64,000 bases of DNA, taken from positions 95,807 through 159,806 of the forward strand of contig DUMU01000005.1 of assembly GCA_012839805.1 (NCBI GenBank), read 5' to 3'. Source of the DNA: Bacillota bacterium (GTDB lineage Bacteria; Bacillota; Limnochordia; Limnochordales; DUMU01). Positions 6,924-15,841 of the stretch are shown here, piece after piece (positions within the stretch are counted from its first letter, which is position 1; the number at the start of each line of letters is the position of its first letter). The notes beneath the pieces were generated by a model. That model was not told the origin of the DNA, did no database searches, and worked only from the letters and a program-made list of their open reading frames with translations. The translations under genes and the position numbers were made by a program.

Positions 6924-7001
6924 TGGTCGGGGCGACTGGATTTGAACCAGCGACCTCACGGTCCCGAACCGTGCGCTCTGGCCAAGCTGAGCTACGCCCC
7001 G
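6924..7001 (-). tRNA. tRNA-Pro (anticodon CGG), CCA encoded
   Basis: Reverse complement CGGGGCGTAGCTCAGCTTGGCCAGAGCGCACGGTTCGGGACCGTGAGGTCGCTGGTTCAAATCCAGTCGCCCCGACCA; acceptor, anticodon and T arms pair. Confidence 0.95.
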
Positions 7002-7013
7002 ACTTACCCTGTC

Positions 7014-7042
7014 ATTCTACGTTCACGATTGGCCATTGTCAA
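7014..7042 (-). promoter_or_regulatory. sigma-A-like promoter for tRNA-Pro (TTGACA-N17-TAGAAT)
   Basis: Minus-strand TTGACA at 7037-7042, TAGAAT at 7014-7019, 17-nt spacer, just upstream of tRNA. Confidence 0.75.
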
Positions 7043-7292
7043 GGCGGATCGGCAGACCCAGTTCGTCGCGGGCAAAGCGAAGAAAACGCAAGAGCGAGCG
7101 ACGGAGGCGGCGCCGGTATTCCGGGCACCGGCCCGAACCCGCCACGAACTCGTCTACGTCCGTGAGCGTGCTTTTAGCCAGCAGGTGGCGCAGGAAACGA
7201 CTGGCGTCTCCCACGGCCGCCTCCTCCGACCGGAAGCCATTCTCCAACAAGTAGTCGAGGTAGCCGGTAAGCAAGTAGATGCGGGTCCGCAC
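7023..7292 (-). CDS. small protein resembling the N-terminal core-binding (SAM-like) domain of tyrosine recombinases
   Basis: GTG at 7292 preceded by AGGAGGTGTGAT; VRTRIYLLTGYLDYLLENGFRSEEAAVGDASRFLRHLL...RRLRRSLLRFLRFARDEL. Confidence 0.6.
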   Translation of the reverse strand: MRTRIYLLTGYLDYLLENGFRSEEAAVGDASRFLRHLLAKSTLTDVDEFVAGSGRCPEYRRRLRRSLLRFLRFARDELGLPIRLDNGQS

Positions 7293-7343
7293 GGGGATCA
7301 CACCTCCTGCCCGTGTTATCATGGGTAAGGAGAGAGGGGACGT

Positions 7344-8453
7344 ATGATACAAAACTTTGACTATGCAGAGGGTCCCGGTTCAGCGCCAGGGTCGGGCCCG
7401 CGGCCGGCCCGTCCTGGCTTGAGCGGGCTTTCCCCGGACGAACTGGAAACCCTGGTCGCTGCCTGGGGCGAGCCGGCCTACCGGGCCCGCCAGTTGTTCA
7501 GCTGGGTCCATGGCGGCCGGGCCCGGAGTTTCGCAGAGATGAGCAACCTCCCCCTGGGCTTGCGCGAAACCCTGGCGGTGCGCGCGGTCCTGGACACCCT
7601 TACCATCCTGGAACGTCGAAAAGCCCGGGACGGCACGACTAAGTATCTTTTCCGCCTCTCTGACGGGGAAACCGTGGAGGCGGTATGGATTCCGGCTCCG
7701 GGACGGCGGACGGTCTGTCTTTCCTCGCAAGTTGGCTGCGCGATCGGGTGCCGCTTTTGTGCGACCGGTTGGGGCGGCCTGGTGCGGAACCTGACGGCCG
7801 CGGAAATCGTGGACCAGGTGCGCCTGATCGCCCGCGATACCGGCCAGCGACCCACCAACCTGGTCTTCATGGGGATGGGGGAACCGCTCGCCAATTACGG
7901 GAACGTCCGCCGGGCGATGGAGTTGCTGCACGCGCCCGCCGGGTTTGGAATCGGCTGGCGCCACCACACTCTTTCCACCAGCGGGATTGTTCCGGGAATC
8001 CGGCGTCTGGCCGGGGAGCGGCTCCCAATTACGCTTGCCGTCTCCCTGCACGCGGCCGACGACGAGACGAGGAGTATGCTCGTACCCGTGAATCGCCGGT
8101 GGCCCATCTCTGAACTGCTCAAGGCCTGCCGGGAGTACGTTGCTTGCACCGGCCGGCGAATTAGTTTTGAATATGTGCTGATACGGGGGGTAAACGACAC
8201 CCGGCGGGATGCCCGGCGCCTGGCCGGGTTGCTCGCCGGGATTCTCAGCCACGTTAATCTGATCCCCTTGAACCGGGTACCCGAGGTCGGCTGGGAGGCC
8301 CCTCCTCCCGCCCGGCAGAGAGAGTTCGCCCGTCTCCTGGAAGAAGCAGGCCTTTCGGTAACGTTGAGGCAGGAGCGAGGCGGGGAGATCGAGGCGGCCT
8401 GCGGACAGCTAAGACGGCGATACGCTCCCGCACCGTCCGGGGTAGGGGTGTGA
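7344..8453 (+). CDS. rlmN: 23S rRNA/tRNA adenine C2 methyltransferase, radical SAM
   Basis: CAIGCRFCATG radical SAM motif, NLVFMGMGEPLANY; rlmN synteny. Confidence 0.95.
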   Translation: MIQNFDYAEGPGSAPGSGPRPARPGLSGLSPDELETLVAAWGEPAYRARQLFSWVHGGRARSFAEMSNLPLGLRETLAVRAVLDTLTILERRKARDGTTKYLFRLSDGETVEAVWIPAPGRRTVCLSSQVGCAIGCRFCATGWGGLVRNLTAAEIVDQVRLIARDTGQRPTNLVFMGMGEPLANYGNVRRAMELLHAPAGFGIGWRHHTLSTSGIVPGIRRLAGERLPITLAVSLHAADDETRSMLVPVNRRWPISELLKACREYVACTGRRISFEYVLIRGVNDTRRDARRLAGLLAGILSHVNLIPLNRVPEVGWEAPPPARQREFARLLEEAGLSVTLRQERGGEIEAACGQLRRRYAPAPSGVGV

Positions 8454-8454
8454 G

Positions 8455-8979
8455 ATGCCCTCCTGGGAGTGGGTATGGCATTTCGCCTGGCTGGCCGCCT
8501 CGTATGCTTTTTTGGGGTGGGTACTGCGGGCGGCCCGTGACTGGTTGGAGGGGGGTGAGCCGGCCGGGCTTGCCGCCGGCCAGCCCCCGGCCGGGATCGA
8601 GCGGGTTACTCCGCCCGTCGCCGGAGAGGTTAAGGAGGAAGCAGTCTCTCTGGTTTTCCGGATCGTACGAGGGCAGCTGGAACTACCGGAGGCGGAGACG
8701 ACCGGGAAGTCCGGCGAAACGGTGGTAGTGCCGGTACATCACGGTGAGGCGCTGGTGGGGCGGGGTTCCGGTAACGATGTTCGCGTCTTCGATCCTTACG
8801 TGAGTGCTCGCCATCTACGATTGCTGGTGACCACGGGGAGGGTTACGGTGGAGGATCTCGGGAGTCGTAACGGAACCTGGATAAATGGACGACGGCTCGG
8901 CGAGCCGGCCGTTCTCGAGCCCGGGGACGAGATCCGGCTGGGCGAGACGCGACTGCGGTGGTTGGGATGGTCCGACTGA
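8455..8979 (+). CDS. membrane-anchored FHA-domain protein
   Basis: N-terminal hydrophobic helix; LVGRGSGNDVRVFDPYVSARHLRL...VEDLGSRNGTWINGRRL FHA core. Confidence 0.9.
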   Translation: MPSWEWVWHFAWLAASYAFLGWVLRAARDWLEGGEPAGLAAGQPPAGIERVTPPVAGEVKEEAVSLVFRIVRGQLELPEAETTGKSGETVVVPVHHGEALVGRGSGNDVRVFDPYVSARHLRLLVTTGRVTVEDLGSRNGTWINGRRLGEPAVLEPGDEIRLGETRLRWLGWSD

Positions 8980-9689
8980 TTGCGGCCGGACGCACCGAGA
9001 AAGGGCACGCTCGTCCCAATAACGAGGACGGGCTGTTGATCAGGCCCCCGCTTTATGCCGTGGCCGACGGCATGGGTGGTCACCAAGCGGGTGAGGTCGC
9101 CTCCCGAATGGCGCTGGAGGCACTGGTGATTCACGAGCCCGATCCCCGGTTCGCACCGGCCAGCCTGGTTCAGGCCGTCGGTGCCGCCAACGAGAGGGTG
9201 TACACCCGGTCTCGGGAGCATCCCGAATGGAGCGGGATGGGAACCACCCTCACCGCCGCCCTCTGGGACGGGCAGAGGTTGCACCTCGCCCACGTCGGGG
9301 ACAGCCGTGCTTATCTGCTGGAGCCCGGGTCGGCCCTGCGCCAGCTCACCCGGGATCACTCGGTCACCAGCGAGCTTTTGGAAAGCGGTCTGATTTCACC
9401 CGAGGCAGCCCGGCTCCATCCCCAGCGGCACGTGCTCACCCGGGCGGTGGGAGTAGCACCGTCAGTAGAAGTGGATGTAATCACGGTCGACGTGGTCCCC
9501 AACGCGCGCATACTCCTTTGTACCGATGGGCTTTCCGGGGTAATCACCCCGGACGAGATGGCCCAAGTCCTCGCGCGCCCTCTGCCGCCGGAACGACAGG
9601 TGAGCCTCCTGGTTCGCTGGGCCAATCTGAGGGGCGGGCCCGACAACATCACGGTCCTTCTCCTCACCGCCGAGGAGGTCCGGCCGTGA
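8958..9689 (+). CDS. PP2C-family Ser/Thr phosphatase
   Basis: NEDGLL, VADGMGGHQAGEVAS, LAHVGDSRAYL, LCTDGLSGVI, GGPDNITVLLL. Confidence 0.93.
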   Translation: MVGMVRLIAAGRTEKGHARPNNEDGLLIRPPLYAVADGMGGHQAGEVASRMALEALVIHEPDPRFAPASLVQAVGAANERVYTRSREHPEWSGMGTTLTAALWDGQRLHLAHVGDSRAYLLEPGSALRQLTRDHSVTSELLESGLISPEAARLHPQRHVLTRAVGVAPSVEVDVITVDVVPNARILLCTDGLSGVITPDEMAQVLARPLPPERQVSLLVRWANLRGGPDNITVLLLTAEEVRP

Positions 9690-12418
9690 GCGGTGTGCAG
9701 GTGAAGCGGTCGAGCATGCCGGCTGCGTATCTTATGGCCCGCCGGCGCGAACTCCGGCTCCTTCTCCTGTCGTTCGTCCCCGTCACCCTGGCGGGCCTCA
9801 CCGGCTTTCTGGCCGGCAAGAGCGGGAAACCCGATCTTTTCCTGCTCTTGGTCCACGCGGGCCTTTTCCTCCTGGCAAGTCTCGTTCTGCGCCTGGCCCG
9901 GAGCGACGCGGATCCGGTCTTGCTTCCGCTCCTTTCGTTCCTGACCGGGATCAGCCTCCTAGTCCTGGCCCGGCTCGATCCGTTCCTTGCGCACCGCCAG
10001 TCGATCTGGCTCGCGGTCTCTCTCGGCACCATGACCATAGTCTCTCTGTGGGACGGCTACCCCAAGCTGGAGCGATGGTGGCCGCTGGCTCTCCTGGCCA
10101 GCCTGGCACTGGCCGGAATCACCCTGGTCGCGGGAGTGCGGGTAGGAGGGGCACGAGCGTGGCTCCGGTGGGGAGGATTCCAGTTCCAGCCGGTTGAACC
10201 CATCAAGCTGCTTTTCGTCCTCTTCTTCGCCGGGCTGGTTTCCGACCGGGAGGAGCTGGATCGCGGGTCACGGTGGGTGGCCATCCTCGGGGTGTTACTA
10301 CTACTCGGGCTCGTCGTACTCCAGCGGGACCTGGGCAGTGCCTTCCTTTTGGTCGCCCTCTTCGTTCTGCTCGCGGCCACCGTCCGGGATGGGGTACGGC
10401 TCGTGTGGCCCATCGCTGCCTTCGCGGGGGCGGTGCTTACCGCTGCCTACCTGGTTTTGCCTTACGTAACGATGAGGATCGAAGCATGGCTGGATCCCTG
10501 GCGCGCTCCCCATAGCTCGGGATATCAGACCCTGCAAGCCCTCTACGCACTGGGCAGCGGCGGCCTTTTCGGGAGCGGGGTGGGTCTCGGTAGCCCCGAA
10601 CGCATCCCCGCCGCCGCCACCGATTATCTGCTGGCGGCCTGGGGAGAGGAGGGGGGGTTCCTCGGGCTTTTGCCGGTGCTGGTGGCCTTGCTGCTTCTGG
10701 TAGTCCGAGGGCTGGCCATCGCCCGGCAAAGGACCGGGCAACCGTTCCTCGCTCGGCTCACGGCGGGGGGGGCGCTGCTTTTTGCCGCGCAGGGGTTTAT
10801 TATCGCCGGGGGCATCGTACGGCTCCTACCTCTCACCGGTCTCCCCTTCCCGTTTTTCGGTTACGGAGGCAGTTCACTATTGGTGAACAGCCTGGTAGCA
10901 GGAATACTACTTGCTCATAGTCGCGGCCGCGGGTGGGACATAGCCTCCTCGAACCGCCCGGACGAACCCGCGGGGCCGGAGCCGGCTTCCACGGGTTTGC
11001 TCCGCCACCGCCTCCTCTGGCTCGGGCGAGGCGTGATGGCGGCCTATGTGATCCTCATCGCCGGCTTCTCCTACTGGCAGGTGGTACAGGGTCCTTCGCT
11101 GGCCGCGCGCCCGGACAACCCCCGGCTGGTCGCCCGCACGCTGGGCGTTCCCCGGGGGGGAATCTACGACCGGCGGGACCGTCCGCTGGCGGAACCGATC
11201 ATCGCGGTAAAACCGGGGGATAAAGAGCAGTTCACCAGGCGGTATGACGTCGACCCCACCTTCGGCCCGCATCTCGGCTACCTTGACCCCCGTCTTGGCC
11301 TGGCGGGCCTGGAGGCGAGCTACTCCAGCTGGTTGGTGGGGGAAGAACGATCTTTGCTCACCGCCCTGGGGGTTCCTCACGCTCCGGCCGGGGCGCCGGC
11401 CGACCTCTTCCTCACGCTAGACGGAGACCTGCAGCGCCTGGCGGGTCGGCTCCTGCGCGGCAGGCCGGGGGCGGCGGTCGTACTCGACCCGCGGGCGGGG
11501 GCGATCCGGGTGCTGGCGAGCAGCCCGGGGTTCAACCCCGAGACGGTGGGGGACGACTGGGACGAGCTACGGCAAGATCCCCTCCAGCCTTTGTTTCCGC
11601 GGGCGGTGAGCGGGCGGTACGCGCCTGGTTCCGCCTGGAAGCCGCTGGTTTTGGCTGCCGCGCTGGATCGCGGGGTGTTGAACGGGGACGAAACCTTCGA
11701 CGATCAGGGTGCGGTGGTGATCGACGGCAACCGGATCGCCAATGCCGATGAGCGAGCCTGGGGACGGCTCGACCTCGATTCGGCCCTGGCCGTCTCGTCC
11801 AACGTGGTCTTTGCCCAGATCGGTGCGGCCCTGCCGCCGGCGGCGTGGATGGAGTTGCTGGGTCCCATCGTGACCTGGAATGGAATCGAAGTAGACCGGC
11901 GCCAGCTCCCGGTAACGCCGGGAAGCCTTCCGCCGCCGGGGGAACGGTGGAGCCGGGTGGCCCGAGCCGAGATGGGGATCGGGCAGGGGCCGCTCGCGCT
12001 GAGCCCCCTGGCTTTGGCCGTCGGTACGGCGGCGATTGCCAACGGCGGCTGGTTGGTCACCCCTTACCTGGTGGAAGAAGGAGTGGGGCGGGGGGGGACG
12101 GGGTGGCGTGAGCCGGTGAGAGAGCCGAAGCGTCTTTTCTCCGCAGAAGCGACCGCCCGGGTTCGCCGCGCCATGCGGGCGGTGGTAGTACGGGGGACCG
12201 GCCGCACGGCAGAGGTATACGGAGAGAAGGTCGCCGGCAAGACCGGAACGGCCAACGGACCCGGGGGACGGGAGGATGCCTGGTTCGTCGGTTTTGCCCC
12301 GTATGATGAGCCGCGAGTAGTCGTGGTCGTGGTGATCGAAGGAGGCGGAGCGGGGGGGCGGACTGCCGCTCCGGTGGCTCGTGAACTGATTTCGGCCGCA
12401 CTCGCAAGCCTCCGGTAG
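9686..12418 (+). CDS. SEDS glycosyltransferase (FtsW/RodA/SpoVE family) fused to class B PBP transpeptidase
   Basis: Single uninterrupted frame; GTG at 9686 with GGAGG. SEDS: RWGGFQFQPVEPIKL, AAATDYLLAAWGEEGGFLG, LPLTGLPFPFFGYGGSSLL. PBP: PRGGIYDRRDRPLA, SAWK, SSN, KTGT. Confidence 0.93.
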   Translation: MSGVQVKRSSMPAAYLMARRRELRLLLLSFVPVTLAGLTGFLAGKSGKPDLFLLLVHAGLFLLASLVLRLARSDADPVLLPLLSFLTGISLLVLARLDPFLAHRQSIWLAVSLGTMTIVSLWDGYPKLERWWPLALLASLALAGITLVAGVRVGGARAWLRWGGFQFQPVEPIKLLFVLFFAGLVSDREELDRGSRWVAILGVLLLLGLVVLQRDLGSAFLLVALFVLLAATVRDGVRLVWPIAAFAGAVLTAAYLVLPYVTMRIEAWLDPWRAPHSSGYQTLQALYALGSGGLFGSGVGLGSPERIPAAATDYLLAAWGEEGGFLGLLPVLVALLLLVVRGLAIARQRTGQPFLARLTAGGALLFAAQGFIIAGGIVRLLPLTGLPFPFFGYGGSSLLVNSLVAGILLAHSRGRGWDIASSNRPDEPAGPEPASTGLLRHRLLWLGRGVMAAYVILIAGFSYWQVVQGPSLAARPDNPRLVARTLGVPRGGIYDRRDRPLAEPIIAVKPGDKEQFTRRYDVDPTFGPHLGYLDPRLGLAGLEASYSSWLVGEERSLLTALGVPHAPAGAPADLFLTLDGDLQRLAGRLLRGRPGAAVVLDPRAGAIRVLASSPGFNPETVGDDWDELRQDPLQPLFPRAVSGRYAPGSAWKPLVLAAALDRGVLNGDETFDDQGAVVIDGNRIANADERAWGRLDLDSALAVSSNVVFAQIGAALPPAAWMELLGPIVTWNGIEVDRRQLPVTPGSLPPPGERWSRVARAEMGIGQGPLALSPLALAVGTAAIANGGWLVTPYLVEEGVGRGGTGWREPVREPKRLFSAEATARVRRAMRAVVVRGTGRTAEVYGEKVAGKTGTANGPGGREDAWFVGFAPYDEPRVVVVVVIEGGGAGGRTAAPVARELISAALASLR

Positions 12419-12441: not shown

Positions 12442-14232
12442 GTGATCGGAAGGTTGCTGGCCCAGCGGTACCGCCTGGAAGAAAAAGTCGGAGCGGGCGG
12501 CATGGCGGAGGTGTACAAGGCGACGGACACCCTCCTCGGCCGTACCGTGGCGGTGAAGATACTCCGATCTCAGTACGCGAGCGATGCCGAGTTCGTCCGT
12601 CGCTTCCGCCGGGAGGCGCGGGCCGCGGCCAGTCTCACCCACCCCAATGTTGTCAACGTCTACGATGTGGGATCCGATGGCGATGTGCACTACATCGTGA
12701 TGGAGTATGTCGAGGGCATCACGTTGAAAGAGCTCATCCGCAAGACCGCGCCCCTGCCTCCTGCGGCTGCGGCCCTGATCGCCAGGGAAGTGGCGGAGGC
12801 CCTCGGGCACGCGCACCGGCGAGGGCTGGTCCACCGGGACATCAAACCGCACAACATTCTCCTGACCGCGGATGGCCGGGTGAAGGTGACCGACTTCGGC
12901 ATCGCCCGGGCGGCCGCTTCGGCCACCCTGACCGAGACCGGCATCGTGCTGGGTTCGGTTCACTACTTCTCCCCGGAGCAGGCGCGGGGCGAGCCGGCGG
13001 TAGCGGTCTCGGACATATACTCCCTCGGAGTTATTCTATATGAGATGGTTACCGGCCGTTTACCCTTCACCGGGGAAAGCCCGGTGGCGGTAGCCCTCCA
13101 GCACATCCAGCAGGAACCCACCCCGGTGCGGTATTGGAACCATCGGGTGCCCCGGGGCCTCGAACAGATCATCGAGCGCTGTTTGGCCAAGGACCCCGGG
13201 CGACGCTACCATGATGCCGGCGAATTGCTGGCCGACCTGGAACCCCTGGCCGAAGGGGCTACCCTCACGGAGCTGATCGAAGCTTGCCGCGAGGGACAGG
13301 ATCTCGACCAAAAGGAGGCGGCGAACGGGCGCGGGGAGGACGGCCCGCAGGCGACGCGCCGTTACGAAGGTGACGAAGAGTTATGGACCGCGCCGGGCCA
13401 GAGCGAGGTGGCCGGTGACGGGCAGGAGACCCTGGAGGCCCCGCCGGCCGGTCGTCGCCGGCGCCTCGGCATCGGGGTGGCGATCCTGGTCGGCCTGGCC
13501 GCGTTGGTGGCTTTTGGTTCCCAATTCGTCTGGCCGCAGCTTTTCCCGGCCCGGGTGCGGGTACCGGACGTAGTGGGACTGACCCGGGAGGACGCACAGC
13601 GCGTGCTTCAAGAGCGGCGGCTTCGTTTGGGAGTGGACGACGTGGAGGTGTACTCCAACGAGTATCCGGCCGGGACCGTGATCAGCCAGGATCCGCCCGC
13701 CAATACCCCCGTCCGGGAGAACCGGACCGTCTGGGTCCGCCTCAGCAAGGGCCCGGAGATGGTGGAGGTCCCAGACGTTATCGGCATGACCCGGCGCCAG
13801 GCCGAGGCATACCTCGCCGAGAACGGGTTGAAGGGAGAGGTCAGGGGGTACCAGTTCAGCGACCGGATTCCGCAGGAGGCAGTGGTTGAACAGGCTCCTG
13901 CCGCCGGGGGGTTCCTGCAAAGGGGGGCCACGGTGGACCTCATCATAAGCCAGGGGCCGCCGCCACCGGCCCAGCTTACCGTGCCCGACGTAAGGGGTAA
14001 GACCCTGGACGAGGCGCGGACGCTGCTGGAAGGGCAAGGGTTAAAGGCAGGAAACGTCTGGACCGACTTCCGCCCGGAGCTACCCGATGGGGTAGTAATC
14101 GAGCAGACGCCCCCCCCGGAAGAACAGGTCGAGGCCGGGTCATCGGTCGACCTGGTGGTCAACCAGCTGGGAGGTGAGTCCCCGCCGCCTTCTTCCGACG
14201 CTTCGCCGGGGTGGGGAGCGATCTACCCGTGA
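12442..14232 (+). CDS. prkC: PrkC/PknB-type Ser/Thr kinase with three PASTA repeats
   Basis: HRDIKPHNILL, DFGIARA, TM helix, three VPDV.G PASTA units. Confidence 0.95.
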   Translation: MIGRLLAQRYRLEEKVGAGGMAEVYKATDTLLGRTVAVKILRSQYASDAEFVRRFRREARAAASLTHPNVVNVYDVGSDGDVHYIVMEYVEGITLKELIRKTAPLPPAAAALIAREVAEALGHAHRRGLVHRDIKPHNILLTADGRVKVTDFGIARAAASATLTETGIVLGSVHYFSPEQARGEPAVAVSDIYSLGVILYEMVTGRLPFTGESPVAVALQHIQQEPTPVRYWNHRVPRGLEQIIERCLAKDPGRRYHDAGELLADLEPLAEGATLTELIEACREGQDLDQKEAANGRGEDGPQATRRYEGDEELWTAPGQSEVAGDGQETLEAPPAGRRRRLGIGVAILVGLAALVAFGSQFVWPQLFPARVRVPDVVGLTREDAQRVLQERRLRLGVDDVEVYSNEYPAGTVISQDPPANTPVRENRTVWVRLSKGPEMVEVPDVIGMTRRQAEAYLAENGLKGEVRGYQFSDRIPQEAVVEQAPAAGGFLQRGATVDLIISQGPPPPAQLTVPDVRGKTLDEARTLLEGQGLKAGNVWTDFRPELPDGVVIEQTPPPEEQVEAGSSVDLVVNQLGGESPPPSSDASPGWGAIYP

Positions 14233-15140
14233 CCTCCGGTGCGGGTGAGGCCGGGACCGCCGTGGTGCTCGGCTGCGTGGGGGGATCGTGCCAGGTTCTG
14301 CTGCCCGACGGGCGAGAAGTGATCGCCTGGCCGCGCGGGCGCCTGCGACGAGAAGGTGCCATCGTGGCGGGCGATCGGGTGATGGTGTCCGTTGCCGGCG
14401 AGCCGCCGGTGTACGCCGTCGTAAAGGTGGTTCCCCGGCGCACTTTCCTCCCCAGGCCTCCCGTGGCCAACGTAGATCAGGTCCTGCTGGTGATGGCGCT
14501 GGCCCAACCCGATCCCTCGCTGGAGCTGCTGGACCGGCTCACCGTGGTGGCTGCCCTGGCCGGAGTAGAGCCGATCATTATCTTCAACAAGGTGGATCTG
14601 GTCGCCCCGGCCCATGCCCGTGGCCTGGCCGAGGGCTACTGCCGGTTGGGCTACCGGGTTGCCTTGACGAATGCCCGGACCGGGGAGGGAGCGGCGCAGG
14701 TGCGGGCGTGGCTGGCGGGAAAGATTACGGCGCTGGCGGGGCCCTCGGGCGTGGGCAAGAGCACCCTGGCCAACCAGCTCTTGCCCGGGGTTCGGCTACA
14801 AACGGGGGAGGTGAGCCCGAAGACGGGACGGGGGCGTCACGTGACGCGGGCGGCTCGGCTCCTGCCCCTCCCGGAGGGAGGCCTGGTGTGTGATGCCCCA
14901 GGTTTTGGCCGGCTCGACTTCCCGGTCATAGAACCGGCGCTTCTTGCCACCTGCTTTCCGGAGATGGGCGAACGTGTCGCAAGGTGCCGTTTCCGGACCT
15001 GTCTCCACAAAGAGGAACCCGGCTGCGAGGTGCGCGAGAGCATGCTGGGCGAGGGAGGCGTTTTCGCCGAGCGATACCGGCACTACCGCCTCTTCCTGGA
15101 GGAGGTGGAAGAGAGTTGGCGGAGGCGATACCAGGAATGA
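14211..15140 (+). CDS. rsgA: ribosome small-subunit-dependent GTPase A
   Basis: Circularly permuted GTPase; FNKVDL, GPSGVGKSTLANQL, CDAPGFG, C-terminal Cys/His zinc motif. Confidence 0.93.
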   Translation: MGSDLPVTSGAGEAGTAVVLGCVGGSCQVLLPDGREVIAWPRGRLRREGAIVAGDRVMVSVAGEPPVYAVVKVVPRRTFLPRPPVANVDQVLLVMALAQPDPSLELLDRLTVVAALAGVEPIIIFNKVDLVAPAHARGLAEGYCRLGYRVALTNARTGEGAAQVRAWLAGKITALAGPSGVGKSTLANQLLPGVRLQTGEVSPKTGRGRHVTRAARLLPLPEGGLVCDAPGFGRLDFPVIEPALLATCFPEMGERVARCRFRTCLHKEEPGCEVRESMLGEGGVFAERYRHYRLFLEEVEESWRRRYQE

Positions 15141-15841
15141 AATCTTCGGAAACGGGCCCAGCGCAAGTGATCATCGCACCGTCGCTCCTTGCGGCCGATT
15201 TCGGGTGCCTGCGGGAGGAGATCGCCCGGGTGGAGTCGGGGGGAGCGGACCGCCTTCACCTGGACGTGATGGACGGCCGTTTCGTGCCCAACCTGAGCAT
15301 CGGATTGCCGGTGGTGGAGGCAGTACGGCGGCTTTCCCGGCTGCCGCTGGAAGTTCACCTGATGATTGCCGAACCGGAACGTTTCATCGAGGCTTTTCGG
15401 AAGGCGGGGGCGGATACGATTCTGGTTCACGCGGAAGCAAGCCCCCATTTGCATCGCCTCTTGTCACAGATCAGGTCGATGGGGGCCCGGGCCGGGGTGG
15501 TTTACAACCCGGCGACCCCTCTGGCGGGGCTGGAATATATTGCCGACCTCGTGGACCAGGTACTGCTAATGACGGTGAACCCGGGGTTCGGGGGACAAGC
15601 CTTCCTATCTGAAGTATTAGGGAAGGTGCGGCGGTGCGCGACCCGGCTACGCACCTTCGGCCGCCCCGTCGACCTGGAGGTAGACGGCGGGATCGACGAA
15701 AAGAGTGCTCCTTTGGTCACGAAGGCCGGTGCTAACGTGCTGGTGGCCGGTTCGGCCATCTTCGGGGATCCCGACCCGGGAGCGGCGATAAGACGGCTCC
15801 GGCAAGCCGCCCGGTTGGGACGCGTGAGCCGGGAAGCTTAA
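15137..15841 (+). CDS. rpe: ribulose-phosphate 3-epimerase
   Basis: IAPSLLAADF, HLDVMDGRFVPNLSIG, MTVNPGFGGQAF, VDGGI; ATGA overlap with rsgA. Confidence 0.95.
   Translation: MKSSETGPAQVIIAPSLLAADFGCLREEIARVESGGADRLHLDVMDGRFVPNLSIGLPVVEAVRRLSRLPLEVHLMIAEPERFIEAFRKAGADTILVHAEASPHLHRLLSQIRSMGARAGVVYNPATPLAGLEYIADLVDQVLLMTVNPGFGGQAFLSEVLGKVRRCATRLRTFGRPVDLEVDGGIDEKSAPLVTKAGANVLVAGSAIFGDPDPGAAIRRLRQAARLGRVSREA

Follow-up and report, generated by a model that had tools for sequence, protein, structure and literature searches.

The locus described here lies in a window of 64,000 nucleotides, the whole stretch of DNA that was analysed, from a bacterium of the Limnochordales (Bacillota; contig DUMU01000005.1). 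Its genes follow one another in the order RsmB, Spo0A, RlmN, FHA, PP2C, SEDS-PBP, PASTA kinase, RsgA and Rpe, and the genes for the PP2C phosphatase and the PASTA kinase adjoin the SEDS-PBP fusion gene in the same direction. The order from RlmN to Rpe is kept in relatives irrespective of whether their SEDS and PBP genes are fused or split. The operon genes and the parts of the fusion gene are:

7344..8453, plus strand: RlmN, conserved operon neighbour
8455..8979, plus strand: FHA-domain protein, FhaB-like (Pfam/NCBIfam)
8958..9689, plus strand: PP2C Ser/Thr phosphatase of the Stp1/IreP type (Pfam/NCBIfam)
9686..12418, plus strand: gene of the SEDS::class B PBP fusion (910 aa), whose GTG start codon overlaps the stop of the PP2C gene
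9686..10918, plus strand: SEDS polymerase half (Pfam PF01098, AlphaFold model, alignment to Thermus thermophilus RodA)
10622..10624, plus strand: D313 codon; this residue aligns with the RodA/FtsW catalytic Asp (E. coli RodA D262, FtsW D297)
10916..10984, plus strand: cytoplasmic linker, residues 411-433 (about 23 residues), of low confidence in the AlphaFold model
10985..11086, plus strand: single PBP membrane helix, residues 434-467 (AlphaFold model)
11120..11395, plus strand: short PbpA-type pedestal with a weak PBP_dimer_2 match at residues 490-558 (Pfam, AlphaFold model)
11468..12391, plus strand: transpeptidase domain with SAWK (11630-11641), SSN (11795-11803) and KTG (12239-12247)
12442..14232, plus strand: PASTA-domain Ser/Thr kinase of the PknB/Stk1 type (Pfam/NCBIfam)
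14211..15140, plus strand: RsgA GTPase (Pfam/NCBIfam)
14984..15841, plus strand: ribulose-phosphate 3-epimerase Rpe (Pfam/NCBIfam)

A 128-codon frame between spo0A and rlmN (6942-7328, plus strand) is without a Pfam or NCBIfam match and may not be a gene.

The fusion gene is a single open frame of 910 codons (9686-12418, plus strand) with a predicted product of 96.7 kDa. Its GTG start overlaps the stop codon of the upstream PP2C gene within the four bases GTGA (9686-9689), and the identical overlap between the two genes is present in the sister genome. In the junction stretch the other two frames contain five stops and one stop, respectively. The domain search proposed in the initial annotation found both FTSW_RODA_SPOVE (PF01098; residues 99-411, E 8.7e-66, 222.8 bits against a curated cut-off of 26.4) and Transpeptidase (residues 595-902, E 3.2e-55, 187.9 bits) within 9686-12418. 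With the frame open and both domains strong, the original claim of one frame of about 910 codons carrying a SEDS core and a class B PBP holds, and the junction it had placed at roughly 10920-11030 agrees with a SEDS core ending near nucleotide 10918 and a PBP helix starting at 10985. Judged from the sequence, the reading of 9686-12418 as a naturally fused SEDS::class B PBP in one polypeptide, with intact active sites in both halves, is supported.

In the AlphaFold model of the fusion protein (mean pLDDT 88.1, pTM 0.74) the SEDS half comprises 12 membrane helices with both ends in the cytoplasm. Two extra N-terminal helices (residues 13-42 and 51-71; 9722-9898) precede the ten that align with RodA. 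D313 aligns with the Asp that is changed to Ala within the pair of T. thermophilus RodA structures; loss of the corresponding residue in E. coli (RodA D262, FtsW D297) kills activity (PMC10449877, PMC8765783). Together with R264 and P308 in the loop 4 region, D313 is invariant in 23 fused proteins, and all three map onto residues on which E. coli RodA and FtsW depend (PMC10449877, PMC8765783); the SEDS half has the HTD-type Asp along with the conserved loop 4 Arg and Pro. A catalytic role had also been considered for the Asp of a 'DPxGxGYQ' stretch of the large loop; the window protein has Ala at that position, which raised the suspicion of a dead polymerase. This suspicion was dropped since, according to both the papers and the Asp-to-Ala structure pair of T. 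thermophilus RodA, it is the Asp of the HTD motif that is catalytic, and this motif is intact. In other Firmicutes, an FHA domain occurs at the N-terminus of the SEDS protein beside such a PBP (L125:2911-4602, minus strand; L011:5293-7080 and L161:3686-5452, both plus strand), and longer SEDS frames are likewise found in L126, L128, L132 and L135. The existence of FHA::SEDS together with SEDS::PBP hints that the FHA protein of the operon docks on its SEDS partner.

In the AlphaFold model the last SEDS helix stops at residue 410, and the SEDS core ends near residue 411 (nucleotide 10918). An SSN at residues 421-423 was rejected as a transpeptidase motif because it lies in the linker, where it occurs by chance. 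The SAWK, SSN and KTGT reported at the outset for the PBP half are found at residues 649-652, 704-706 and 852-855, and S649/K652, S704/N706 and K852-T853-G854 are invariant in the 23 fused proteins. Pfam and the AlphaFold model agree on a class B PBP layout with one N-terminal membrane helix and a pedestal, the latter weakly matched by the dimerisation domain PF21922 (26.8 bits, cut-off 27); a GT51 domain was not found in the fusion protein by the Pfam search. The solved structures nearest to the model are transpeptidase domains from Atopobium parvulum and Eggerthella lenta, with M. tuberculosis PbpA next, in line with the PbpA-like character initially ascribed to this half. Neither half reaches the NCBIfam equivalog cut-offs for the classical systems (ftsW 223.6 against 337.5, rodA_shape 191.4 against 336.7, spoVE 160.7 against 448.8 and, for PBP2 (MrdA), 262.2 against 455). 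PASTA-operon SEDS::PbpA-type PBP is therefore a more apt name than RodA-PBP2.

The same fusion is encoded in a Limnochordales MAG of the same genus (G001, contig JADBKP010000006; 63% identity) and in a genome of the same family (G002; 53% identity). In the class it is present in 13 of 73 genomes, G001, G002 and ten more included, and in the phylum five more species from three families have it among 399 sampled genomes (G349, G386, G342, G367 and G446, with the fusion of G342 cut by the contig end). Among the sampled Actinomycetota, 38 of 397 genomes have a single match that covers both domains within one long frame, counted with no internal stop allowed and with one case containing a terminal stop only; nine of these fusions were inspected gene by gene, and each is a single frame. 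Six genomes listed as spanning matches with at least one internal stop proved to have two genes, in frame and separated by one or two stops, and were left out of the fused count. Long frames in several actinobacteria (e.g. L178-L182) are overlapping open frames and not fusions. One fused gene of the actinobacterial type has an interrupted PBP half (L194:3324-6295, minus strand), due either to an assembly error or to real breakage. The initial annotation had supposed that isolated fusions might be known from other lineages: they are indeed known but they are not isolated, as they occur in several Firmicutes lineages and in about one tenth of the sampled Actinomycetota. Most relatives have two genes, either overlapping, often by 4-20 bases, or in frame with a stop between them. 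At six loci of the class (L064, L065, L066, L069, L070 and L071) the SEDS and PBP genes share a frame and no more than one or two stops separate them, so that one or two base changes would suffice for fusion. The pair is apparently absent from several Limnochordales genomes (G005, G008, G010 and G012, two of them single-contig), which suggests that it is dispensable there.

A tree of 96 SEDS/PBP pairs contains eight changes between the fused and the split state, at least seven of them on well supported branches; the tree, a rapidly computed one under a single-matrix model, is unrooted and includes some rows of odd composition. Trees of the SEDS and PBP parts alone give nine and eight changes, respectively, and removal of three doubtful rows from the concatenated alignment leaves a tree with seven. 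A single clade of all fused rows is rejected (p-AU 1.5e-4), as is one fused clade within the class (p-AU 4e-38). Fusion of the SEDS-PBP pair in the same kinase-linked operon thus seems, as far as the sequences tell, to have arisen at least seven times.

Since most relatives possess two adjacent, briefly overlapping genes, one lost stop or a frameshift would be enough to join them, and a sequencing or assembly error could in principle mimic a fusion. Such an error is exceedingly improbable. The frame is also open in the two nearest species and in more genomes of the class, all separately assembled, and the linker remains in frame in all fused relatives despite its variation in sequence and length. 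The survey of relatives, as suggested in the initial annotation, in this way excludes an assembly artefact. State changes on an unrooted tree, on the other hand, cannot separate gain from loss, and fusion could be the ancestral condition from which the split genes arose by repeated fissions. This is quite unlikely: a single early fusion would require 19 later fissions as opposed to about eight fusions, the linkers of different fused lineages are unlike one another in the alignment and look unrelated, and the split state is that of most rows on either side of the midpoint root. Repeated fusion is therefore the simpler reading, and we infer that the direction of change was fusion rather than fission.

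Two further alternatives concern the product. The fused frame might be translated and two separate proteins might nevertheless act, owing to internal initiation or to cleavage of the linker, which is predicted to be flexible in the AlphaFold model; the candidate start would be an in-frame GTG-ATG near 11033, which is preceded by a purine-rich stretch. The Met in question, however, falls within the membrane helix of the PBP half, and neither of the two sister species conserves it. Furthermore, selection against a stop would not be expected if two proteins were at work, yet the frame remains open throughout each fused clade while the linker changes. We consider this alternative unlikely. A fusion with one degenerate half, capable only of polymerisation or only of cross-linking, would be compatible with the divergence of the SEDS half, which does not reach the equivalog cut-offs for RodA and FtsW, but neither half has lost its catalytic and substrate-site residues, which do not vary among the 23 fused proteins, and degeneration is very unlikely.

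Very probably, the fusion protein, as part of the PASTA-kinase operon, is a RodA-PbpA-type peptidoglycan synthase in a single chain that arose by stop loss. In this single-chain synthase, the SEDS half would polymerise lipid II by means of the HTD-type D313, its cytoplasmic C-terminus would lead via the flexible linker into the N-terminal PBP membrane helix, with normal topology for both halves, and the extracytoplasmic transpeptidase would cross-link the new strand. The same genome encodes a SpoVE/FtsW and SpoVD-like pair next to mur genes and a RodA-PBP2 pair next to MreBCD and MinCD, which makes the fusion the cell's third SEDS/class B PBP system. Its regulation probably lies with the kinase, phosphatase and FHA protein encoded next to it. 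In the family of the window's organism, two adjacent and translationally coupled genes would have been joined by loss of the stop codon, and the same event seems to have happened independently several times. Probably the chain remains intact, with activity in both halves and regulation by the kinase; if the protein does remain intact, it follows that a 1:1 stoichiometry would be hard-wired. Coupling of polymerisation and cross-linking in cis is suggested by analogy with engineered fusions (PMC6207328, PMC10449877). We give an even chance to the more far-reaching proposal that the kinase-linked pair underwent at least seven independent fusions across Firmicutes and Actinomycetota, which would make this synthase an obligate 1:1 unit, permanently joined and controlled by the PASTA kinase. 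Unsystematic inspection of the genomes examined brought up no RodA-PBP2 or FtsW-FtsI fusion.

The prevailing view is that SEDS and class B PBP proteins act as complexes, and structural work had to engineer fusions to keep them together. Natural fusions that have been kept in evolution are ready-made single-chain enzymes for structure determination and kinetics. Repeated fusion of the same pair argues that the partners need not part during the cycle, and the tie to the PASTA-kinase operon offers a direct route to the question of how phosphorylation controls a polymerase-crosslinker unit. An obligate 1:1 kinase-linked synthase would, if true, differ from RodA-PBP2 and FtsW-FtsI.

A survey of natural SEDS-PBP fusions or a report of their recurrence was not found in the open-access literature. 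A precedent, cited in passing, is a natural SEDS-PBP in Rhodococcus sp. RHA1 (Nygaard et al. 2023, PMC10449877, its reference 18), which according to this brief mention combines SEDS and a class B PBP in one open reading frame as in the window gene but belongs to another phylum. The solved structures closest to the window PBP half, from A. parvulum (4jbf, 4n1x, 4qjg, 4r0q and others) and E. lenta (4mnr), share about 31% identity with it at a TM-score of 0.87-0.91 by target length. They carry the name 'peptidoglycan glycosyltransferase' and cover the transpeptidase domain alone, and the fused lineage concerned forms a clade apart from that of the window. They appear to derive from natural fusions as well, given that an actinobacterial fusion of 953 aa (L184) matches 4jbf across nearly its whole PBP half with 794 bits. 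The actinobacterial RodA-PbpA of the FHA-PstP-RodA-PbpA-PknB operon shares the operon logic and the short PbpA-type pedestal with the window protein but consists of two proteins in most species instead of one chain. E. coli RodA-PBP2 unites the same two enzyme types, and engineered versions, in which the SEDS C-terminus is joined to the PBP N-terminus just as in the window, show activity in vitro and for the most part function in vivo (PMC6207328, PMC10449877). The window fusion differs from them in its natural linker, its PbpA-type PBP, the lack of MreCD neighbours and its location in a PASTA-kinase locus. Class A PBPs also combine polymerase and transpeptidase in one chain, but their polymerase is GT51 and not SEDS. 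In view of the Rhodococcus precedent and the functional engineered fusions, a natural SEDS-PBP fusion is of a kind already known, and it is the recurrent, apparently convergent fusion that is the interesting part.
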